Shown here piece by piece: positions 4,264-22,984 of a DNA stretch of 24,213 nucleotides. The stretch comes from a virus, in IMG/VR virus record IMGVR_UViG_3300009104_001238, positions 1 to 24,213 of that record; one strand, given 5' to 3'. Numbering within the stretch: the first letter of the stretch is position 1; the number at the start of each line of letters is the position of its first letter. The notes beneath the pieces are model-generated. The model worked only from the letters and a program-made list of their open reading frames with translations, was not told where the DNA came from and ran no database searches. A program made the translations under genes and the position numbers.

Positions 4264-4544
4264 TGTTAAAAAATATTATTATTTTGTTTTTAATTTATCT
4301 TTTATGTTCTTTGTTGTTTCAGAATAAAAAGAATGTTGATATTTTAGTAGAAGATTTAGCTACAACAAAAGAAAAAGTAATTGATGGAGCTGATTATGTT
4401 AAAGAAACTTTTGAAGAAAAATTTTCAAAAGAAGAACCTATGATTAAGTTTGAAGGATCTAAGTCTAATCATATTAAGGAGGATACATTTTTAAATGATT
4501 TGAAACAACAGATTCAAGAGGAGACTTTTTTAAATGAAAAGTAA
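4263..4544 (+). CDS. Membrane-anchored helical protein, unknown function
   Basis: 93 residues with one N-terminal hydrophobic helix (IIILFLIYLLCSLLF, about 5-19) and then a charged, helical, probably coiled-coil domain. The sequence DTFLNDLKQQIQEETFLNE holds a short internal repeat of (D/E)TFLN. It may be a membrane anchor or a secreted protein; the helix is followed by QNKKN with no clear signal-peptidase site. It overlaps the dCMP deaminase start by 11 nt, so its end contains that gene's ribosome-binding site. Confidence 0.6.
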   Translation: MLKNIIILFLIYLLCSLLFQNKKNVDILVEDLATTKEKVIDGADYVKETFEEKFSKEEPMIKFEGSKSNHIKEDTFLNDLKQQIQEETFLNEK

Positions 4545-7629: not shown

Positions 7630-8006
7630 AAAAAATAATTTTTATATGTGTATTATCATTATTTATTATGGGTTCTGGTCCTTTAGCACCTGAATTAGGA
7701 ATTTATGGTAATGGCCAAGGCAAAGAAAAACCAACTCCAGAGAAAACAATTCCATTAGCTGATATTTTAGTGTATTGTAATACACCAGAATTTATCAAAA
7801 AGATGGCAGAAAATGATTATATGTTGGGGGTAGCTGCTAGTGGTACTATCAATGACGATAGACACAAAACATTACTTTCTATGCAGTTACTGATGAATCC
7901 GAATAATAAACAATGGGCTATTATTTTTAATTATAAAAAAGGAAATCTTTCATGCATAATCGGAGGAAATCGGATTAAGTTATATACGCCGGAGGATCAA
8001 ATATGA
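7626..8006 (+). CDS. Secreted protein of unknown function, HtrA neighbour
   Basis: 126 residues with an N-terminal signal sequence (MKKIIFICVLSLFIMGSG, cleavage probably within the following PLA/PEL region). The mature domain holds two Cys (YCNTPEF and LSCIIGG), which could form a disulphide in the periplasm, and a repeated hydrophobic pattern (LLSMQLLMNPNNKQWAIIF). The family is not recognised. It overlaps the HtrA-like lipoprotein gene by 4 nt, so the two exported proteins are probably made together; it may be a substrate, partner or inhibitor of that protease. Confidence 0.6.
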   Translation: MKKIIFICVLSLFIMGSGPLAPELGIYGNGQGKEKPTPEKTIPLADILVYCNTPEFIKKMAENDYMLGVAASGTINDDRHKTLLSMQLLMNPNNKQWAIIFNYKKGNLSCIIGGNRIKLYTPEDQI

Positions 8007-9166
8007 AAAATAAAATTTTTAGTTTGTTAGTAGTTTGTCTAGTTTCACTTACTTTTGGTTGTGTTATGTCTACAACCGCAGCTTTAACTACTGCTGGGGG
8101 TGCGGCTATGACAAAAGTAATTGAACACCGAGCAGGATATGGTATGCGAGATCCGCATACAGTTATAGAAAGAGTAATGCCTTCAGTTGTTACAATTATC
8201 TCTGAACTTCCTAAGATAGAAACAAATAATCCTAGAAACAGATTTATGAAACCAAATGAGCTGAAAGAACAACGACAACAATTACCTAATAGAGAAAATA
8301 ATCAATTTCAATCTGGTACTGGTTTTGTTATCCATGAAGATGGAACAGTTATTACCAATTTTCATGTAGTAGCTAATGTTGTAAATAATAATGGTAAGGG
8401 AAAATTTCAAGTATTTTTTAGTAATGATGCTGTTTATCCTGCAGAAATTTTTAATTATGATAAAACATCTGATATAGCAATTCTAAAAATAAAACATGAT
8501 CCTGAGGTAAAATTTCCAGCACTTAAATGGGGACCTAAACCTAAGTTGGGAGGTCATGCAATTGTTATTGGATCACCAATTGGATTAGATTTTAGTGTTT
8601 CTTTTGGTATTGTTTCTGCTATTGATAGAATTATTCCAAAAGCTAGTCCTCCTTTTGTTCCTTATATTCAAACTGATGCTTCTATGAATAGAGGAAATTC
8701 TGGTGGACCTTTATTTGATGCGAAAGGTAGGGTTATAGGAATTAATACTTTAATATTAACTCCACCAAGCAGACAAGGGGTTGATATTGGAAGTGTCGGT
8801 CTTGGTTTTGCTATTGATGGAACATACGCACAAGATATTATAAATAGGTTACAAGATGGTAATAAAATTATATGGAGTTATTTAGGTATTCATTATCGTT
8901 TATTAAATTATGAAGAAACACAAAATAATAATTTACCATTTGGATCTAATATAGTTGTTGTAAAAGTTACAGATAAAGGTCCAGCAAATGGTTTATTAAA
9001 AGAAAATGATATTATTCAAAAAATGGATGGAAATATAGTTACTCATAAATTATTCGCTTCTATGATTGCACGTTTAAAACCTGGAAGTAAAATTAATTTA
9101 GATATTCTTAGAAATAAACAACCTTTGAATATTGATATAGTTTTAGAAGAAAGACCTGTTGCTTAA
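8003..9166 (+). CDS. HtrA/Deg-like serine protease, predicted lipoprotein, with one PDZ domain
   Basis: 387 residues. A lipoprotein signal with LTFGC puts the lipidated Cys at 20. The trypsin-like domain (about 50-260) carries the catalytic triad H121 (TNFHVV), D157 (KTSDIAIL) and S233 (MNRGNSGGPLFD). One PDZ domain follows at about 290-385 (YLGIHYRLL, GPANGLLKENDII). HtrA proteases degrade or refold misfolded envelope proteins. This one is shorter than two-PDZ DegP and close to DegS/HhoA size, but it is lipid-anchored rather than held by a transmembrane helix. A complete triad suggests activity. It is a rare phage cargo; roles may include envelope control during infection or release. Confidence 0.88.
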   Translation: MKNKIFSLLVVCLVSLTFGCVMSTTAALTTAGGAAMTKVIEHRAGYGMRDPHTVIERVMPSVVTIISELPKIETNNPRNRFMKPNELKEQRQQLPNRENNQFQSGTGFVIHEDGTVITNFHVVANVVNNNGKGKFQVFFSNDAVYPAEIFNYDKTSDIAILKIKHDPEVKFPALKWGPKPKLGGHAIVIGSPIGLDFSVSFGIVSAIDRIIPKASPPFVPYIQTDASMNRGNSGGPLFDAKGRVIGINTLILTPPSRQGVDIGSVGLGFAIDGTYAQDIINRLQDGNKIIWSYLGIHYRLLNYEETQNNNLPFGSNIVVVKVTDKGPANGLLKENDIIQKMDGNIVTHKLFASMIARLKPGSKINLDILRNKQPLNIDIVLEERPVA

Positions 9167-9181: not shown

Positions 9182-10099
9182 ATGAGTAAAGAAAAGATTG
9201 TTTTATGTGAAGATTTAGCAGACATCATGCCTCCAGAATATCAAGAGTTGGTTGAAGAATCTACTTTTGGTAAAGTAGATCGTGGTTGGAAAGATATAGG
9301 TTCTTCAAAAGAATTAATTGAACAACATTCTTTATGTGCTGGTTGTCCAGAGTCTATCGCATTTCGATATATTCTCGCAAGTCTCCCTGCACCAGAGGAT
9401 ACAGTTTTTGTCGGTTCTACGGGTTGTACTAGTTTAGTTTTTCCTCATGTTGCAGTACACAATATTCATTCTTTGTTTGGTAATCAGAATGCTATTGCAT
9501 CTGGTTTAAAAAGAGCCTTGAAGTGTCGTTTTCCAGATAGAGAAAAAGACGTAGTTGTACTTGCTGGTGATGGTGCTACAGTTGATATTGGTTTAGATAT
9601 GACTATGCAATCTTGGTTCAGACAAGAAAACTTTACTACCATTTGTTTTGATAATGAACTTTATGCAAATACGGGTGGGCAAGAGTCTGGTCTTATGCAA
9701 AAAGGATTCGTTGCAAAGATGGCACCGAAGGGTAAGAAGTTTGAAAAAGTAAGACTAGTTGAAATTGCAAAAGAAGCTGGTTGTGCCTATGCAACAATGT
9801 TGACTGTAAGTAAACCAAATAGAGTAGAAGAAGTTATACAGAACGCAGTTCATATTGCAAGAGAAGTCGGTCCTACATTTGTCCAACTTTATACTCCATG
9901 TATTCTTGAGATTGGTAAACAATCAATGGAAGGATTGGATGAAATGAAAGACTCTGAACAAATTGGTGGAAGATTTGTTACTAGAACATATGTAACAGAT
10001 GAAGCACAAGCAGTAATTGATAGATTGAAACAAGAAAAGAAAGAACGTAAGAAAGCTGCTAAGAAACTTAAACCTAAAAAAGAAATGGTGCCTGCATAA
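9182..10099 (+). CDS. 2-oxoacid:ferredoxin oxidoreductase beta-subunit-like protein, copy 1
   Basis: 305 residues of the thiamine-diphosphate-binding beta subunit of pyruvate/2-oxoacid:ferredoxin oxidoreductase, which decarboxylates a 2-oxoacid to acyl-CoA and reduces ferredoxin. Four Cys fit the [4Fe-4S] site: C52 and C55 (LCAGCPES), C82 (STGCTS) and C240 (YTPCIL). The TPP motif runs from GDG at 129-131 to DNELYANTGGQ at 158-168. A Lys-rich tail (about 274-300) is extra. AAAAGGAGAAGG precedes the ATG. It is followed with 1-nt overlap by a homologue. No alpha or gamma subunit is in this window, so the partner may be host-encoded or elsewhere in the phage. The exact 2-oxoacid is unknown. Confidence 0.88.
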   Translation: MSKEKIVLCEDLADIMPPEYQELVEESTFGKVDRGWKDIGSSKELIEQHSLCAGCPESIAFRYILASLPAPEDTVFVGSTGCTSLVFPHVAVHNIHSLFGNQNAIASGLKRALKCRFPDREKDVVVLAGDGATVDIGLDMTMQSWFRQENFTTICFDNELYANTGGQESGLMQKGFVAKMAPKGKKFEKVRLVEIAKEAGCAYATMLTVSKPNRVEEVIQNAVHIAREVGPTFVQLYTPCILEIGKQSMEGLDEMKDSEQIGGRFVTRTYVTDEAQAVIDRLKQEKKERKKAAKKLKPKKEMVPA

Positions 10100-10974
10100 T
10101 GAGTTTAGAAACTTTAAGACCATCTCCCGCTATGAGGGAGTTTTTACCAGTTGAGTATAAAGATTTAGTAGAACACGGTCCTTATACGAATAGAAATGGG
10201 TCTGATACACAGACTGTAAAAGTCAAAGATATGGGTAAGTTCAAAGAAGTTATTGAAGAACATCCCATGTGTGCAGGATGTGCTATGACACTTTTTATTC
10301 GTCTTGCATATATCGGTATGCCTAATCCTGAACATACGATTGTTGTTGGAACAGCTGGTTGTGGAAGGTTAGCCATATCCCAAGCTTCTGTACCTTTTAT
10401 CTATGGTAATTATGGTGATACTAATGCTGTTGCATCTGGATTAAAACGTGGTTTAGAAGTTCGTTATCCGAATCAATATAAAGATGTTGTAGTAATGGCT
10501 GGTGATGGAGGATTAATTGATATTGGTTTTCAAGGATTGATGCACAGTTGGTTTCGTAGAGAAAAGTTTACGACTATCATGCTTGACAATGAAGTGTATG
10601 GTAATACTGGTGGGCAAGAAAGTGGAATGACGAATCAAGGTAAAGTTCTCAAGATGGCACCTCGTGGTAAGTTCGGAGAGAAAGTAGATGCACTTGGATT
10701 AGCAAAAGTTGCTAAAGTAGATTATATTGCACGATTAGCACCAACTAATCCTGCTCGTGTTGCAAGAACTGTTCGCCGTGCTATCATGGTTGCCAGAGAA
10801 GTGGGATCTGCTTATGTTCAAGCATATACATCTTGTAATATTGAATATTCTATTCCTACACCATTAGTTATGCAAGATGCTTTTGACATAGAAAAAGAAA
10901 GATATGGTTTTGAAGAAATTATATCTGATCGTGCAAAAGAGTATTTGCGTGATAAAGGAGAAAAAATAAAATGA
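10099..10974 (+). CDS. 2-oxoacid:ferredoxin oxidoreductase beta-subunit-like protein, copy 2
   Basis: 291 residues, clearly homologous to the preceding gene (shared (M/L)PxEYxxLVE near the start, ASGLKR, AGDG, SWFR, DNE-Y-NTGGQESG) but well diverged, so this is an old duplication or two distinct subunits. Fe-S Cys at C58, C61 (MCAGCAMT), C88 (TAGCGR) and C246 (YTSCNI); TPP motif from GDG at 135-137 to DNEVYGNTGGQ at 163-173. Both copies keep all cofactor residues. Overlaps on both sides (1 nt and 4 nt) imply strict co-expression with copy 1 and the NfuA-like gene. Two beta-type subunits side by side is an unusual arrangement for this enzyme class. Confidence 0.87.
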   Translation: MSLETLRPSPAMREFLPVEYKDLVEHGPYTNRNGSDTQTVKVKDMGKFKEVIEEHPMCAGCAMTLFIRLAYIGMPNPEHTIVVGTAGCGRLAISQASVPFIYGNYGDTNAVASGLKRGLEVRYPNQYKDVVVMAGDGGLIDIGFQGLMHSWFRREKFTTIMLDNEVYGNTGGQESGMTNQGKVLKMAPRGKFGEKVDALGLAKVAKVDYIARLAPTNPARVARTVRRAIMVAREVGSAYVQAYTSCNIEYSIPTPLVMQDAFDIEKERYGFEEIISDRAKEYLRDKGEKIK

Positions 10975-11342
10975 ATGATGTAGAAAAGTATGAAGCAATA
11001 GAAGCATTGTTTGAAGAACATCTCAGACCTGCATTGGCAGCTGATGGAGGATCCGTAGAGGTGGATTTGGTTAGAGGTAATGAAGTTATAATTAGTTTTC
11101 AAGGAGCTTGTGGTTCGTGTCCATCATCTGCTGGAGCAACACTTGCAGGAATAGAACGTACAATACGACAACGCGTTTTTCCTGAAGCTGTTGTTATACC
11201 TACTAATGCCTATGGTATGAACACACAAGATGAAACCGAAGAAATGAATAGTCGTTTTGGTACAGAACATCCGTTTGGTGGCGAAACATATGCTGAACAA
11301 ATTGCAAAGAGAACAAAAAAATCACCATTAACAACAAATTGA
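10971..11342 (+). CDS. NifU C-terminal/NfuA-like Fe-S carrier
   Basis: 123 residues. The NifU-like domain spans about 1-75 and has the cluster-binding C47-x2-C50 motif (GACGSCPSS), after the conserved HLRPALAADGGSVEV. These proteins carry [4Fe-4S] clusters to target enzymes. A 45-residue tail without motifs follows, rich in Glu/Thr/Lys. It overlaps the second POR-beta gene by 4 nt and shares its operon with ferredoxin and an IscA-like protein, so it probably matures the POR and ferredoxin clusters. The N-terminal degenerate A-type domain of E. coli NfuA is absent. Confidence 0.88.
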   Translation: MNDVEKYEAIEALFEEHLRPALAADGGSVEVDLVRGNEVIISFQGACGSCPSSAGATLAGIERTIRQRVFPEAVVIPTNAYGMNTQDETEEMNSRFGTEHPFGGETYAEQIAKRTKKSPLTTN

Positions 11343-11360
11343 AGCGAGGAAAAATAAATA

Positions 11361-11642
11361 ATGATAAAAGTAGATGTGCATGATAACAGAAACAAACTTG
11401 AAGCTAAATCAGAATACGGACAAGTAGAAGAACTTAAAATAGAAATAAGAAAACATCATGTATTACCTGATGTTTTTATTTTAGATTTAGTAATGGATGT
11501 TGATGGTGAAAAAATTATGGTACAGACTCAACATCAAAGTGGTGATGAAGCTTTCCAAAAATTTTCAAGAGATGCTCTTAAATTAGGTAAAACTTTGTCT
11601 AAAGATGTTACATTTCTTGGAAGGCCAAAGAAATATGAATAA
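11361..11642 (+). CDS. Conserved small protein, unknown function
   Basis: 93 residues with mixed alpha/beta pattern (VEELKIEIRKHHVLPDVFIL, EKIMVQTQHQSG) and a short basic end (LGRPKKYE). No Cys and no visible cofactor motif, although it sits inside the Fe-S block. GCGAGG lies about 13 nt before the ATG. Its end overlaps the next gene by 8 nt. Unrecognised; a phage-specific accessory protein is possible. Confidence 0.6.
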   Translation: MIKVDVHDNRNKLEAKSEYGQVEELKIEIRKHHVLPDVFILDLVMDVDGEKIMVQTQHQSGDEAFQKFSRDALKLGKTLSKDVTFLGRPKKYE

Positions 11643-11910
11643 AGAAACTTTAATACCAATAATACTTGGAGTTGCATTGTCTGGCCTTGGAACTTTAATG
11701 TCGTTTGCATATGATTCAATAGATGAATTACATGACGAGGTAGTGAATCATAGAGTGTTACTATCTAAGTTAATATCACCTGACGGAGTGATTATACAAT
11801 CACCAACATCTGCAACTTCAAAATCTGCTTTAAAAGATGAGATTTATCAGTTAAAGAGTAAAATTGCAGTTATTGAAAAACAAATAGAATATCTTGAAAA
11901 GGAGAAATAA
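11635..11910 (+). CDS. Small membrane protein with C-terminal coiled coil
   Basis: 91 residues from ATG 11635. One N-terminal hydrophobic helix (LIPIILGVALSGLGTLMSFAY, about 5-25), then a linker and a predicted coiled coil (LKDEIYQLKSKIAVIEKQI, about 67-86). I chose this start over the TTG at 11605 because ATG 11635 lies in a typical short overlap with the previous stop. The architecture resembles small phage membrane spanin- or holin-accessory-type proteins, but there is no direct evidence for that. It lies next to the ferredoxin gene. Confidence 0.6.
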   Translation: MNKETLIPIILGVALSGLGTLMSFAYDSIDELHDEVVNHRVLLSKLISPDGVIIQSPTSATSKSALKDEIYQLKSKIAVIEKQIEYLEKEK

Positions 11911-11912
11911 TA

Positions 11913-12251
11913 ATGGCAACAATAATTACAGATGAATGTATTAATTGTGCAGTTTGTGAGCCCGAGTGCCCCAATGAAGCAATTGATGATGGTTCAGGAG
12001 AAGGATTAGATTATTATTATATTGACCCTGATCTTTGTACTGAGTGTGTAGGATTTCATGGTGAAGAAGCATGTCAGGAAGTATGTCCTGTTGACTGTTG
12101 TATACCTGATGAAGATATTAGAGAATCAGAGGAAGAACTCTTGGAAAAAGCAAAGAAAATTCATCCAGATCAAGAGTTTCCATTACTAGAAGAATTGACA
12201 AACAAGACTTCTATATTTAGAAACCCCGATAGAAAGAACGCAAATCTATGA
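11913..12251 (+). CDS. 2[4Fe-4S] ferredoxin (YfhL/Fdx-like)
   Basis: 112 residues. Two [4Fe-4S] motifs: C9-x2-C12-x2-C15-x3-C19 (DECINCAVCEPECPNEAI) and C42-x2-C45-x8-C54-x3-C58 (LCTECVG, ACQEVCPVDCC). The longer gap in the second motif is typical of the Alvin/YfhL ferredoxin family, with low reduction potential. A helical C-terminal extension of about 45 residues follows. It is the natural electron acceptor for the POR-like proteins encoded 1 kb upstream. AAAAGGAG lies at good spacing before the ATG. It overlaps the IscA-like gene by 4 nt. Confidence 0.92.
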   Translation: MATIITDECINCAVCEPECPNEAIDDGSGEGLDYYYIDPDLCTECVGFHGEEACQEVCPVDCCIPDEDIRESEEELLEKAKKIHPDQEFPLLEELTNKTSIFRNPDRKNANL

Positions 12252-12580
12252 ACGAAATTGTTACAATTACAGATGCAGCAAAAAAACAAATTTTAAGTTC
12301 TATGGAAGAACCCGGAGATAATTTACGTCTTGCTGTAAAAGGTGGTGGATGTTCTGGTATGTCTTATGAATTGTTTGGTGAAGCACCCGAGGATGTTCAG
12401 GATATAGATACTGTTATACCACATGAAGGATTTAATGTGGTTATAGATCAAAAAAGTATTATATATCTAAAAGGTATTGAGTTAGATTTTGAGGGTGGTC
12501 TGGAAGGAAAGGGATTTACCTTTAAAAATCCACTTGCTACTTCAACTTGTGGTTGTGGTGAAAGTTTTAGTGTAACATGA
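12248..12580 (+). CDS. IscA/HesB-type Fe-S cluster carrier
   Basis: 110 residues, full length for an A-type carrier. Three conserved Cys: C35 in GGGCSGMSY, and C101 and C103 in STCGCGESF. IITDAAKKQI-like N-terminus and the GLEGKGFTFKNP segment before the Cys pair are typical. It receives Fe-S clusters from a scaffold and passes them to apoproteins. It sits downstream of the ferredoxin gene with 4-nt overlap and upstream of the HAD gene with 4-nt overlap. A-type carriers are known in marine T4-like phages. Confidence 0.93.
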   Translation: MNEIVTITDAAKKQILSSMEEPGDNLRLAVKGGGCSGMSYELFGEAPEDVQDIDTVIPHEGFNVVIDQKSIIYLKGIELDFEGGLEGKGFTFKNPLATSTCGCGESFSVT

Positions 12581-14918: not shown

Positions 14919-16400
14919 ATGATTTATAAGAATTTTATGGGTGGTGTGTGGATGGAAACCGCTTCTGAAAAAACTTTCAAGTCCTTCAATCCCGCACATA
15001 CAGGACAAGAAGTTGGAGAATTTCAAGATTCCAATGAACTTGACATTAATCAGGCAGTAGCTTTTGCAAAAGATTCATTTAAGATGTGGAAGAATACACC
15101 AGCACCAAAACGTGCTGAGATTCTTTTCAAAGCGGCACAAATTATGGAACGTGATAAAGAGTGTATTGCAAAAGGTATGACACAAGAGATGGGTAAGATT
15201 ATTGCTGAAACCCGTGGTGATGTTCAAGAAGCAATTGATATGGCATATTATGCGGCTGGTGAGGGCAGACGTATGGCAGGTGAAACAAATCCATCTGAAT
15301 TGAAAGATAAGATGGTAATGACTATTCGACAACCGATTGGTGTTATTGGTGCGATCACACCTTGGAATTTTCCAATAGCAATACCATCATGGAAAGCATT
15401 CCCAGCATTAGTAGCTGGTAACACAATGGTTATGAAACCAGCAGAAGATACTTCTTGGTCTGTTATTAAATTAGCAGAAATTTTTATTGAAGCTGGATTA
15501 CCACCGGGTGTATTTAATGTTGTAACCGGTTTTGGTCCAACTGCGGGTATGCCTTTAGTTCAACATCCAGATGTTAAGATGATTTCGTTTACTGGATCCA
15601 CTGCTACTGGTCAGTTAGTAGCAACAGCTTGTGCTGTAGATAATAAACCGTATTCTCTTGAAATGGGAGGAAAGAATGGTATTATTGTAGATCAAGATGC
15701 AGACCTTGATCTTGCAGTTGAAGGTGTTGCTTTTGGAGCATTTGGTACTACTGGTCAAAGATGTACTGCTTGTTCAAGAGTTTTTATACATGAAGATGTT
15801 AAAGAAGAATTTACAGAAAAATTATTGAAGAAAACACAATCTTTATTTATTGGTGATGGATTAGATGAAACAGTTAATATGGGTCCGTTGATAAATCAAA
15901 AAGCGGTCGATAAAGTAACTAAGTATGTTGAAGAAGCAAAGGCACGTGGTTTATCAATCCTTTGCGGAGGAAAGAAACTTCAAGAACCAACTGATAATAC
16001 TTATGGTTACTTTTTTGAACCAACTATTTTTGATATGGTAGATATTAATGATCCATTAATGCAAGAAGAAATATTTGGACCTGTAGTTGCATTAAATACT
16101 TTTACAAATCAAAATGAAGCAATTTGGCAAATTAATAATACACCATATGGTTTAAGTGCTGCTTTATATAGTAGTGATATTAATTTTGCTATGAGAGCAT
16201 TTCAAGAAATAGAAACGGGTCTTGTATATGTTAATGCTTCCTGTATAGGTGCAGAGGTACATCTTCCTTTCGGAGGATTAAAAGGAACTGGAAATGGTCA
16301 TAGGGATGCAGGACAGACTATGTTGGATAATTGTACTGAATGGAAAGTGTGTTCAGTAGATTTTTCCGGGCGTATACAAAAGGCTCAAATTGATCCCTAA
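14919..16400 (+). CDS. NAD(P)-dependent aldehyde dehydrogenase
   Basis: 493 residues, full length for the ALDH superfamily, which oxidises aldehydes to carboxylic acids. Catalytic residues: N150 (TPWNFP), K173 (VMKPAED), E248 (LEMGGKNG) and C282 (TTGQRCTAC). FTGST at 224-228 contacts the cofactor; EEIFGPVV and LPFGGLKGTG complete the signature set. The sequence resembles semialdehyde-type enzymes (alpha-ketoglutaric or aminoadipic semialdehyde dehydrogenase-like), but the substrate cannot be fixed. All key residues are intact, so it should be active. Stand-alone position between small phage genes argues for a phage auxiliary metabolic gene. Base composition is like its neighbours, so transfer is not recent. 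Confidence 0.93.
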   Translation: MIYKNFMGGVWMETASEKTFKSFNPAHTGQEVGEFQDSNELDINQAVAFAKDSFKMWKNTPAPKRAEILFKAAQIMERDKECIAKGMTQEMGKIIAETRGDVQEAIDMAYYAAGEGRRMAGETNPSELKDKMVMTIRQPIGVIGAITPWNFPIAIPSWKAFPALVAGNTMVMKPAEDTSWSVIKLAEIFIEAGLPPGVFNVVTGFGPTAGMPLVQHPDVKMISFTGSTATGQLVATACAVDNKPYSLEMGGKNGIIVDQDADLDLAVEGVAFGAFGTTGQRCTACSRVFIHEDVKEEFTEKLLKKTQSLFIGDGLDETVNMGPLINQKAVDKVTKYVEEAKARGLSILCGGKKLQEPTDNTYGYFFEPTIFDMVDINDPLMQEEIFGPVVALNTFTNQNEAIWQINNTPYGLSAALYSSDINFAMRAFQEIETGLVYVNASCIGAEVHLPFGGLKGTGNGHRDAGQTMLDNCTEWKVCSVDFSGRIQKAQIDP

Positions 16401-20038: not shown

Positions 20039-20629
20039 GTGGTGGTTTTTCCTATTTTTGGACTGGCTAATAAAGATGGTGAACCTTTAGTTATTGGTTT
20101 TGCTGGAAGTGCAAGAAGTGGTAAAGATACTGCTACAGAATATTTGTGTAAGCGTTATCGTTGTTTACATTATTCTTTTGCTAAACCTATTAAAGAAGCA
20201 TGTAAAATTATGTTTCAATTAACTGATGAGCAAGAAAAGAATAAAGAAGAAATAATAGAACCTTGGGGATATTCTCCAAGAAAAATGTATCAGCATATAG
20301 GAACTGATATTGGTAGGTCTTTGGATCCTAATATTTGGGTAAAAAACGCTGAGATTTTTCGTAAAAAAAATATTGGTCGTACAGTTGTAATTAGTGATGT
20401 ACGTTTTACGAATGAAGCTTTTTGGATTAGAAGTAAAGGTGGTGTAGTTATAAGAATCCATAGACCTAATAAAAAACAAATTAAAGAAAGTAGTCATGCT
20501 TCAGAACATGGCATGAAAGTTGGAGATTATGATTTTACTATTGTTAATGACGGTACTATTCAAGATTTGTATGACAAGTTAGATTTGTTTACAGATAATT
20601 CTATACACGGAATACCTAGTGTTGTATAA
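20039..20629 (+). CDS. Deoxynucleoside monophosphate kinase, T4 gp1-like
   Basis: 196 residues. P-loop G23-SARSGKDT (K29) near the N-terminus, after PLVIGFAG; the Asp after GK is typical of phage dNMP kinases. MYQHIGTDIGRSLDPNIWV and VISDVRFTNEAFWIRSKGG match the substrate-binding and DVR regions of the family. It phosphorylates dNMPs to dNDPs for DNA synthesis. Starts: GTG 20039 (shown) or GTG 20042; the AGGAG at 20031-20035 is better spaced for the second, giving one residue less. The stop codon overlaps the tmRNA promoter. Confidence 0.85.
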   Translation: MVVFPIFGLANKDGEPLVIGFAGSARSGKDTATEYLCKRYRCLHYSFAKPIKEACKIMFQLTDEQEKNKEEIIEPWGYSPRKMYQHIGTDIGRSLDPNIWVKNAEIFRKKNIGRTVVISDVRFTNEAFWIRSKGGVVIRIHRPNKKQIKESSHASEHGMKVGDYDFTIVNDGTIQDLYDKLDLFTDNSIHGIPSVV

Positions 20630-20650
20630 ATATTATAATTGCTGTATAAT
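20622..20650 (+). promoter_or_regulatory. tmRNA promoter (TTGTAT-17-TATAAT) overlapping a late-type element
   Basis: -35 TTGTAT at 20622-20627 (over the kinase stop codon), 17-nt spacer, -10 TATAAT at 20645-20650; start expected near 20657, just at the tmRNA acceptor piece. Within it, TATAAATA at 20625-20632 equals the T4 late-promoter core, with start near 20638. The first is strong by sequence; the second may be chance in AT-rich DNA. Confidence 0.7.
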
Positions 20651-20654
20651 CTTA

Positions 20655-20909
20655 GAGTGAAAGTTTTTTTGGACTCGGGTGCAATTCCCGACACCTCCAC
20701 CAATTCCAATGGCCTACTATGAACGGTTTACCAAATTAAGGGGGGTGAAATAGTTTCGACAGGAGAATGGAAACTATAGGACAGCACGGAGAAGCATGAT
20801 GGCTCCGTTATCAATTATGCATACTTTAAACGCTAACGATTACGAATTAGCGATGGCTGCATAGTCAGTCGGAGTCCGAGGGTACTTGGCAACAGAAACC
20901 CTCATCTTT
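20655..20909 (+). ncRNA. ssrA: Circularly permuted (two-piece) tmRNA
   Basis: tmRNA rescues ribosomes stalled on broken messages. The 3' acceptor piece is encoded first: T stem-loop TCGGG-TGCAATT-CCCGA, then CACCTCC (20692-20698) and encoded ACCA ending at 20702. After a 38-nt spacer, the coding piece starts at 20741 with GGGGGTG, which pairs over 7 bp (one G-U) with CACCTCC to make the acceptor stem, followed by the tmRNA hallmark TAGTTTCGACAGG. The tag frame lies at 20832-20864; a hairpin GAGGGT/ACCCTC (20878-20883, 20898-20903) and a T-rich stretch mark the end. Both outer ends (20655 and 20909) are approximate. Permuted tmRNA is known from alphaproteobacteria, some cyanobacteria and a few others. 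Two mature pieces would arise by removal of the spacer. Confidence 0.93.
20832..20864 (+). other. tmRNA proteolysis tag reading frame, ANDYELAMAA
   Basis: From GCT 20832 to TAG 20862-20864 the frame reads ANDYELAMAA then stop, 10 codons as in E. coli (ANDENYALAA). Resumption at GCT is preferred because A lies 4 nt before it (20828), as in E. coli; starting at AAC 20829 would add one Asn. The tag ends in AA, the Clp recognition signal, but has Met where most tags have Leu or Val. Confidence 0.85.
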
Positions 20910-20913
20910 TTCC

Positions 20914-20942
20914 TTGTATTTGTATTCTCATTATGTTATAAT
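20914..20942 (+). promoter_or_regulatory. sigma70-like promoter (TTGTAT-17-TATAAT)
   Basis: -35 TTGTAT at 20914-20919, 17-nt spacer, -10 TATAAT at 20937-20942, directly after the tmRNA and before the basic protein gene at 21011. Start near 20949, leaving a leader of about 60 nt. No paired dyads lie upstream. Confidence 0.75.
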
Positions 20943-21010
20943 GAGATGTTTGTTATGATGAAATGAGTAAAATTTTCATCATGTATTTTAATCCTATATA
21001 GGAGATGTTT

Positions 21011-21223
21011 ATGAGTACTATGAAGCGTGGTCAGCCTAAAGTTGGCCGAAGAAATGCTCGCAAAATGACTCGTCTTGAGTGTGAGCTAACAGATTTACCC
21101 CGGTGGGTTCAGATTTATACGAGCCCTGCTACTGGTGAAGTTGCGTTTAAGAACGCTGACATTGCTGGTGGTGCGAAGTCTGTTTATGCTATCCGAAAGA
21201 AACTTTCTAAGTTTTGGGGATAA
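21011..21223 (+). CDS. Small basic protein in a one-gene transcription unit
   Basis: 70 residues from ATG 21011, chosen because ATAGGAG (20998-21004) is correctly spaced for it but directly abuts the alternative ATG 21005. Highly basic: MKRGQPKVGRRNARKMTRLE at the N-terminus and AIRKKLSKFWG at the end, with an intervening LPRWVQIYTSPATGEVAFKN beta segment. Probably binds nucleic acid or acidic host protein. Codon choice (CGT, CCT, GCT, CTT, GGT) is richer in GC than in neighbouring genes, suggesting high expression or a different history. Own promoter and intrinsic terminator. Unrecognised. Confidence 0.75.
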   Translation: MSTMKRGQPKVGRRNARKMTRLECELTDLPRWVQIYTSPATGEVAFKNADIAGGAKSVYAIRKKLSKFWG

Positions 21224-21232
21224 GCATTAATT

Positions 21233-21268
21233 AAAAATAGGGACTCTTTATGAGTCCCTATTTTTTTT
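21233..21268 (+). terminator. Rho-independent terminator
   Basis: TAGGGACTC (21238-21246), loop TTTAT, GAGTCCCTA (21252-21260), then eight T. Five A's before the stem could extend pairing. It closes the basic-protein transcription unit and separates it from the lysis-like genes. Confidence 0.92.
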
Positions 21269-21271
21269 CTT

Positions 21272-21279
21272 TATAAATA
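21272..21279 (+). promoter_or_regulatory. T4-type late promoter core TATAAATA
   Basis: A perfect TATAAATA just after a terminator and before the cassette with the SleB-type hydrolase. By T4 geometry transcription would begin at 21285. The position between a terminator and lysis-type genes makes it more credible than other chance matches in this AT-rich DNA. Confidence 0.55.
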
Positions 21280-21311
21280 TTGTTATGAAATATATAAAAC
21301 AAAAATTCAGC

Positions 21312-21343
21312 GAAGGAGGAGACTATGATTCGGAACCTCCTTC
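21312..21343 (+). promoter_or_regulatory. Hairpin hiding a Shine-Dalgarno and start codon
   Basis: GAAGGAGG (21312-21319) is the ribosome-binding site of the 45-residue gene; CCTCCTTC (21336-21343) is its exact complement 16 nt further on. The start ATG (21325) lies in the loop. The 8-bp GC-containing stem would block translation until opened. Confidence 0.6.
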
Positions 21344-21462
21344 AGTATATAAAAAAGAGTAAATACTCAAAGATATTATTTAAAGTGTATATTGTTTGGT
21401 GTGTGATAGCAGATTTAACATTATTGGGTGGTATTGTTTGGGGTTTTATTTATTTTTGGTAG
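21325..21462 (+). CDS. 45-residue membrane protein, possible holin-like
   Basis: Sequence MIRNLLQYIKKSKYSKILFK, then a hydrophobic stretch VYIVWCVIADLTLLGGIVWG and FIYFW. The basic N-terminus and one or two membrane helices suit a small holin or pinholin, and the next gene is a cell-wall hydrolase with a signal sequence. The Shine-Dalgarno AAGGAGG is 5 nt upstream but can be sequestered. A competing 25-codon frame starts at ATG 21285 (MKYIKQKFSEGG...) and overlaps. The holin role is inferred only from size and context. Confidence 0.55.
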   Translation: MIRNLLQYIKKSKYSKILFKVYIVWCVIADLTLLGGIVWGFIYFW

Positions 21463-21468
21463 GTTAAA

Positions 21469-22014
21469 ATGAAAAAATTTTTGATATGTATTTTTGTTAT
21501 TGCAATGACTTTTCCTGTTTCATGTACTGTTAATTCTATTAGTAGTGCATTTGATAATAAAGTGTTTTTTGTACCTAATTTTTATAATTTCAAAAATGAA
21601 GTTAATTGTTTAGCTCAAAATGTTTATTTTGAAGCTAGAGATCAACCTACTAAAGGTCAAATTGCAGTTGCACTTGTTACGATAAATCGTGCAAAGAGTA
21701 AAAGATTTCCAAATACTATTTGTAAAGTTGTTCATCAAGCAAGTCGATATAGTAATGGTAAGTTAATTAAAAACAGGTGTCATTTTTCTTGGTTTTGTGA
21801 TGGGTTATCTGATAAGCCAAAAGATAAGTTAGCTTGGAAAATATCTGTGTTAATTGCTAAAGCAATGTTGAAAAGAAATGATATGATAGAAGATTTTTTA
21901 CATGGTTCTACGCATTATCATAGAAAAGACGTTAATCCCTATTGGAATAGAAAAATGATTCGAGTTACAACTATTGGAGATCATATATTCTGGAAGGATT
22001 ACTTAAACGATTGA
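21469..22014 (+). CDS. SleB/CwlJ-type cell wall hydrolase
   Basis: 181 residues. N-terminal hydrophobic signal MKKFLICIFVIAMTFPVSC: either a lipoprotein signal (weak lipobox, Cys19) or a signal-anchor. The Hydrolase_2 domain begins VNCLAQNVYFEARDQPTKGQ with catalytic E55, then ALVTINRAKSKRFPNTIC KVV, CHFSWFCDG and YHRKDVNPYW. This family are peptidoglycan glycosylases used in spore germination and as phage endolysins. Follows a small membrane protein under a late-type promoter, as in a lysis cassette. The export signal means it could reach the wall without a large-hole holin. Confidence 0.85.
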   Translation: MKKFLICIFVIAMTFPVSCTVNSISSAFDNKVFFVPNFYNFKNEVNCLAQNVYFEARDQPTKGQIAVALVTINRAKSKRFPNTICKVVHQASRYSNGKLIKNRCHFSWFCDGLSDKPKDKLAWKISVLIAKAMLKRNDMIEDFLHGSTHYHRKDVNPYWNRKMIRVTTIGDHIFWKDYLND

Positions 22015-22034
22015 CTACGTTGGAGGTACATAGA

Positions 22035-22595
22035 ATGAGTAAAGATAAGAAACAGGATGTAACGCAGCCGTCAGTCGAAGAATGTGGTATATATCTTCTG
22101 ATGGATGAGATTTCTGATGCTAGTTGTAAAGATGTTATTACTTTTATTATTTCAAAAAATGTTACAAAACCATATCCAAAATATTTACAGATTGTAATTA
22201 ATTCTAGTGGTGGTGATTTACAATCTGCTTTTGCTGTTATAGATACAATGAGAGGTAGTGCAATACCTGTCCGTACAGTTGGATTAGGTTGTGTTGCTTC
22301 AGCTGCTGTAATGATTTTTATAGCTGGTGAACCCGGTCATAGAATATTGACACCAAATACTTCTATACTGTCTCATCAATATTCTTGGGGTACATATGGT
22401 AAAGAACATGAATTATTCAGTACAGTTAAAGAATATGAATTAACTACCGAAAGAATGGTTAATCATTATAAGAAATGTACAGGTTTAAGTGAAAAGAAAG
22501 TGAGAGAACATTTACTACCACCTCAAGATATTTGGTTGAGTGCTAATCAAGCTAAGAAACTTGGTATTTGTGATAGTGTTAGAACTACTTACTAA
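22035..22595 (+). CDS. clpP: ClpP-family serine protease
   Basis: 186 residues from ATG 22035, chosen for GGAGG 8 nt upstream; the TTG at 22011 is before that site. Catalytic triad S89 (LGCVASAAVMIF), H114 (LSHQYSWG) and D165 (PPQDIWLSANQA). INSSGGDLQSAFAVIDTM matches the oxyanion region. ClpP forms a barrel that degrades proteins fed by ClpX or ClpA, including tmRNA-tagged ones. At 186 residues it is slightly shorter than host ClpP and resembles phage and picocyanobacterial ClpP-like forms. It lies 1.1 kb from the phage tmRNA. It might join host Clp complexes or replace the host peptidase. Confidence 0.88.
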   Translation: MSKDKKQDVTQPSVEECGIYLLMDEISDASCKDVITFIISKNVTKPYPKYLQIVINSSGGDLQSAFAVIDTMRGSAIPVRTVGLGCVASAAVMIFIAGEPGHRILTPNTSILSHQYSWGTYGKEHELFSTVKEYELTTERMVNHYKKCTGLSEKKVREHLLPPQDIWLSANQAKKLGICDSVRTTY

Positions 22596-22777: not shown

Positions 22778-22984
22778 ATGACTATTGATTTAAATTTAAC
22801 AATAGAAGAAATTGTTAAAACAAAAGAAATATCTTATATAGATGCTGTTTTGTTTCATGCTAAATCCATTGAGATTGAACCTGAAGGAATGGCAAAGATG
22901 TTGAATCAATCTATAAAAGATAAAATAGAAGTTGAAGCACAGGAGCTTCATCTGTTGAAAAAGACTGCTAAACTTCCTTTATAA
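22778..22984 (+). CDS. Possible gp33-like late transcription coactivator
   Basis: 68 residues, helical: TIEEIVKTKEISYIDAVLFH, AKSIEIEPEGMAKMLNQS, IKDKIEVEAQELHLLKKTAK, ending LPL. The short length, the pattern (SYxDAV, I-E-E/A-K-M-L/I, LKxKIxxEAxxL) and the position just before gp32 match my recollection of the small gp33 of marine T4-like phages; in T4 genes 33, 59 and 32 are also adjacent. gp33 bridges RNA polymerase to the sliding clamp for late transcription. No separate 59 homologue lies between it and gp32. Its ATG touches the stop of the preceding gene. Assignment is moderately sure. Confidence 0.55.
   Translation: MTIDLNLTIEEIVKTKEISYIDAVLFHAKSIEIEPEGMAKMLNQSIKDKIEVEAQELHLLKKTAKLPL

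Follow-up and report, generated by a model that had tools for sequence, protein, structure and literature searches.

The window (the whole 24,213-nt stretch analyzed here, IMG/VR record IMGVR_UViG_3300009104_001238) very probably carries a working circularly permuted ssrA gene, in a lytic T4-like marine phage that would use it for trans-translation with host factors. That this tmRNA is a further example of an already published type of phage gene is well supported. ARAGORN and two Rfam models together place the gene at approximately 20640–20906: ARAGORN calls a tmRNA* at 20610–20955 with the tag ANDYELAMAA, RF04321 (tmRNA_permuted) matches 20640–20864 at 122.1 bits (E 9e-24; cut-off 47 bits), and RF01849 (alpha_tmRNA) matches 20584–20906 at 111.5 bits (cut-off 50 bits). 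A sequence-only reading of this DNA had proposed a phage-encoded, circularly permuted tmRNA and suggested a covariance search with permuted models; matches well above both cut-offs, together with the compensated acceptor stem described below, bear the proposal out. The order it gave, with an acceptor piece ending in encoded CCA lying 5' of the coding piece, is confirmed, ACCA being legible in the sequence at 20699–20702. Its start for the gene, at 20655, has been corrected: the 5' end of the acceptor piece lies near 20640, and UGCUGU (20640–20645) there forms a long helix with ACAGCA (20781–20786). Coordinates of the individual features are collected in Table 1.

Table 1. Features of the permuted tmRNA gene and of two neighboring genes, in window coordinates.
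Feature	Position	Strand	Basis and conservation
Acceptor piece, 5' part of gene, ending in encoded CCA	20640–20702	+	RF04321 model positions 1 onward; 86–100% identical in relatives
T-arm TCGGG / CCCGA, T-loop TGCAATT (20680–20686)	20675–20691	+	Two-sided changes at 2/5 pairs among relatives
Acceptor stem, 3' strand CACCTCC	20692–20698	+	Pairs with 20741–20747; 280/280 acceptor pairs kept in 40 distinct forms
Discriminator A and encoded CCA	20699–20702	+	Read from sequence; kept in all 40 tabulated forms
Intervening spacer, expected to be excised	20703–20740	+	Diverged and length-variable in more distant relatives
Coding piece, 3' end approximate	20741–20906	+	RF01849 match stops at 20906; 82–98% identical in relatives
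Acceptor stem, 5' strand GGGGGTG, with G3 of G3-U70 at 20743	20741–20747	+	Sequence and relatives
TTCGACAGG hallmark	20755–20763	+	Read from sequence; kept in 9/10 clade members, TCGATTGG in L153
Pseudoknot 5' of tag, CGGAG/CTCCG and GCATGAT/ATTATGC	20787–20820	+	Two-sided changes at three pairs of second stem
Tag reading frame, ANDYELAMAA then TAG	20832–20864	+	ARAGORN; codon conservation in clade
3' hairpin GAGGGT / ACCCTC, loop segment GGCAACAGAA	20878–20903	+	Invariant in ten aligned sequences
ClpP-like protease gene, 3' neighbor of tmRNA	22011–22595	+	Pfam PF00574; Ser97, His122, Asp173 invariant in alignment
gp33-type late-transcription coactivator, recurrent 3' neighbor of phage permuted tmRNAs	22778–22984	+	PF16805; synteny

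The 7-bp acceptor stem closes across the segment between the CCA and the coding piece, 20692–20698 pairing with 20741–20747. The 38-nt spacer that the earlier reading put between the pairing strands is exact, as are its strand coordinates; its statement that the strands pair fully stands if G-U wobble is counted, one of the seven pairs being U20696–G20743. This G20743-U20696 pair (G3-U70) and the discriminator A20699 (A73) are invariant over 40 distinct acceptor/T-arm forms. G3-U70 is the alanine identity element. Both the tag frame, called by ARAGORN with its stop codon, and the TTCGACAGG hallmark are intact, as had been claimed.

Relatives (L124–L203) were gathered by a gp32 search of viral contigs, and in the close clade the tmRNA occupies the same place as in the window. 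Covariation was evaluated in the distinct sequences of ten close relatives (alignment A1), over eight helices, including one that forms part of a pseudoknot. Of 470 named pair cells in these ten sequences, 99.8% are paired, a percentage biased upward since the window was itself a source for part of the structure; the weight rests on two-sided changes and slid controls rather than on the percentage paired. Six pairs change on both sides, compared with 2.7 in shuffles (six was reached in 0 of 500) and with 0–2 when the partner strand is slid. Two of them belong to the T-stem, one to the acceptor stem, and three to the pseudoknot 5' of the tag. Compensatory change in the acceptor stem among related phages, which the earlier reading had expected of a genuine gene, is present at two pairs, with every pair kept in all of the forms tabulated: at one of them A-U, G-U and G-C alternate within the close clade, and at the other G-C and C-G exchange in the wider set. 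The 3' hairpin of L136 (GAGAGT / ACTCTC) is a compensated change, and the long helix of L361 is compensated as well (UGUUGU/ACAACA vs. UGCUGU/ACAGCA in the window). Co-folding energy of the two pieces gave no significant interaction, 16 of 200 shuffles being equally strong; chance is excluded because of the covariance-model scores and the covariation in relatives, not because of folding energy.

Conservation is distributed unevenly over the gene. In six more distant relatives (L139, L140, L146, L147, L149, and L153), the acceptor piece is 86–95% and the coding piece 82–88% identical to that of the window, while the spacer is 22–39% identical and ranges from 21 to 74 nt in length. Within the clade, 8 of the 11 tag codons, stop included, are invariant or show synonymous change only, with the tag pattern ANDY[E/D/S][L/Y]A[M/L]AA; the tag has a hydrophobic end, AA followed by the stop, and is preceded by the pseudoknot. 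Divergence of the spacer only, together with synonymous change in the tag, is as predicted for a spacer that is excised and a tag that is translated. The lineage thereby provides covariation-level evidence that selection maintains ribosome rescue in phages. Much shorter spacers also occur: 1 nt (CCA-T-GGGGG) in L361 (2545–2575), which is related to the window clade, and 3 nt (CCA-TAT-GGGGG) in the permuted tmRNAs of L170 and L179.

Positions 54 and 58 of the T-loop switch together in viral permuted tmRNAs. Among 119 distinct phage permuted tmRNA genes tabulated, 76 have T54/A58, 42 have G54/G58, and one has another combination; the window T-loop, TGCAATT, is of the T54/A58 type common among them. 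The alphaproteobacterial two-piece tmRNA (RF01849) shares with the window gene its gene order, encoded CCA, G3-U70, pseudoknot, and a 3' segment with GGCAACAGAA, but differs at these T-loop positions, having G54/G58 in 69 of 73 sampled bacterial genes (a sample weighted toward genomes that are small and score high, with some duplicates included). The four exceptions in that sample represent two genes, themselves found by the T54/A58 pattern. The natural variants of the phage lineage (gene missing, spacer of 1–3 nt, switched T-loop) offer easy material for tests of tmRNA maturation and of SmpB recognition.

Judged from its sequence, the gene would most likely provide trans-translation in infected cells, with SmpB, processing enzymes, and alanyl-tRNA synthetase (AlaRS) all drawn from the host; its anatomy supports this, appearing to fit ordinary trans-translation. 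The transcript would fold with 20692–20698 paired to 20741–20747, and host tRNA-processing enzymes would then excise 20703–20740, giving two RNAs, an acceptor of approximately 63 nt and a coding one of approximately 165 nt, that would be joined by the acceptor stem and the long helix. Host AlaRS would charge the acceptor RNA via G3-U70, and the tmRNA, with host SmpB, would enter stalled ribosomes, add A-ANDYELAMAA, and free them, which could be useful to the phage when infection yields many broken mRNAs. A search of eleven phage records, the complete HTVC008M genome included, turned up no SmpB, and therefore the host's SmpB would be used. What is established directly is the structure of the gene, its covariation, the conservation of the tag, the divergence of the spacer, and the phage context; transcription, processing into two RNAs, charging, tagging, and benefit to the phage are what we infer.

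Another possibility is that the phage RNA acts by competing with the host tmRNA, blocking host trans-translation. Such an effect is on record for mycobacteriophage DS6A (PMC11915505), whose tmRNA is reported to block trans-translation in its host. The DS6A RNA, however, has no tag coding sequence, whereas the window tmRNA has a conserved tag, its frame intact and under coding constraint, and the pseudoknot 5' of this tag covaries; a decoy role is accordingly very improbable here. The gene might also be a decaying copy caught by accident from a host and functionless in the phage, as could be suggested by two members of the same clade, L144 and L145, in which the interval from the stop codon of the dNMP kinase gene to the downstream CCTTGTAT holds no tmRNA. 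Their lack of a tmRNA at this site means that the gene is dispensable. Compensatory changes in three helices, a tag under coding constraint, divergence confined to the spacer, and a position conserved across many phages nevertheless make a functionless passenger barely credible. Both of these readings are disfavored by the conservation of tag and stems, leaving trans-translation with host factors as the preferred one. The gene-absent alleles lie at 4470–4700 of L144 and 7490–7620 of L145.

A more elaborate role would couple the tmRNA to the ClpP-like protease encoded downstream: the catalytically intact phage ClpP could associate with host ClpX, forming a hybrid protease that would destroy tagged proteins or recycle amino acids during infection. 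This is somewhat supported by the position of ClpP, 1.0–1.4 kb downstream of the tmRNA in 16 of 16 tmRNA-bearing clade loci, by its retention of the catalytic Ser, His, and Asp, and by the presence of a permuted tmRNA in 17 of 19 records with a ClpP 59–67% identical; a permuted tmRNA is also present in Sinorhizobium phage Phosso and in BUCT-ZZ01, the two isolates whose ClpP is nearest. However, most of these records go back to a single ancestry with a common gene order. L144 and L145 retain ClpP without a tmRNA at its site, and HTVC008M and Mosig have a tmRNA without ClpP. In a wider set of ClpP records the proportion with a tmRNA falls to 7 of 20, compared with 7 of 16 ClpP-less gp32 controls. 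The records are mostly fragments, in which a missing match does not equal absence. With that fall a general association of ClpP and tmRNA was rejected; the link is one of conserved synteny in a single lineage and no general rule, and a tag-and-degrade module is unlikely. The ClpP subfamily of the window has matches in more than 570 stretches of viral contigs.

Does the tmRNA identify the host? The sequence-only reading had taken it to point to the host lineage, and this is not supported. Host inference is weak because the model preference splits (the best model of the tmRNA clan is alpha for the window and beta for its close relative L361), because no close bacterial tmRNA was found by similarity search among the sampled bacterial genes, and because a published OM43 phage, Melnitz, has an alpha-type tmRNA at odds with the lineage of its host (PMC9004378). 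Similarity over the coding piece is 108–161 bits within the clade, 33 bits for the best unrelated phage, and 32 bits for the best sampled bacterium. Assignment of a host by tmRNA similarity was rejected for want of a near bacterial gene, and tmRNA type alone should not be used to name a phage's host.

The genes of the window are T4-like, including gp32, the gp33-type coactivator, dNMP kinase, and T4-type exonucleases. The gp33 gene is approximately 1.8 kb downstream of the tmRNA, with three genes between. Among the matches listed for a DNA pattern alone in viral contigs, many permuted tmRNAs have an exonuclease upstream and gp33 downstream. A late-promoter reading of TATAAATA, at 20625, was dropped: its 7 copies in the window are near the 5.4 expected, and it is absent from this site in the relatives.

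Phage permuted tmRNAs have already been published, and the window adds a separate lineage. A survey of 18,146 phage genomes found 53 two-piece tmRNAs, 50 of them in marine or aquatic phages; that of Melnitz adjoins a transcription coactivator, and a glutamine riboswitch accompanies the tmRNA in some members only and is not defining (PMC9004378). Mosig EXVC030M (a Pelagibacter phage) and Melnitz (a Methylophilales phage) are, like the source of the window, T4-like marine myophages with a two-piece tmRNA near a gp33-type coactivator (PMC9004378), and the Mosig record has an annotated SsrA and the same exonuclease/gp33 order as the viral contigs. Unlike in these two, tmRNA and gp33 are separated in the window clade by orf72, a cell-wall hydrolase, and ClpP, and no glutamine riboswitch was detected beside the window tmRNA (20300–21500, at E up to 1). 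The Mosig tag is GEDNFALAA rather than ANDYELAMAA, and the gp32 of the window is only 53% identical to that of Mosig. Pelagibacter phage HTVC008M has acceptor strands (CACCTCC/GGGGGTG) identical to those of the window, a T-loop of the T54-A58 type, and likewise an exonuclease upstream and gp33 downstream of its tmRNA; it differs in its tag (ANFNEYALAA), in its spacer (49–50 nt vs. 38 nt), and in having no ClpP in its genome. The HTVC008M permuted tmRNA, at 145161–145370 of KC465899.1, is missing from the deposited annotation.

Other genes in the window include two adjacent ones with a TPP-enzyme C-terminal domain (9182–10974 and 10971–12580), followed by NifU-like, 4Fe-4S ferredoxin-like, and Fe-S biosynthesis genes, an auxiliary metabolic set unusual for a phage. 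A trypsin-like protease with a PDZ domain, in a DegP-like layout, is encoded at 8003–9166. There are also genes for glyceraldehyde-3-phosphate dehydrogenase (1518–2549) and aldehyde dehydrogenase (14919–16400), the latter 76–91% identical in clade members.
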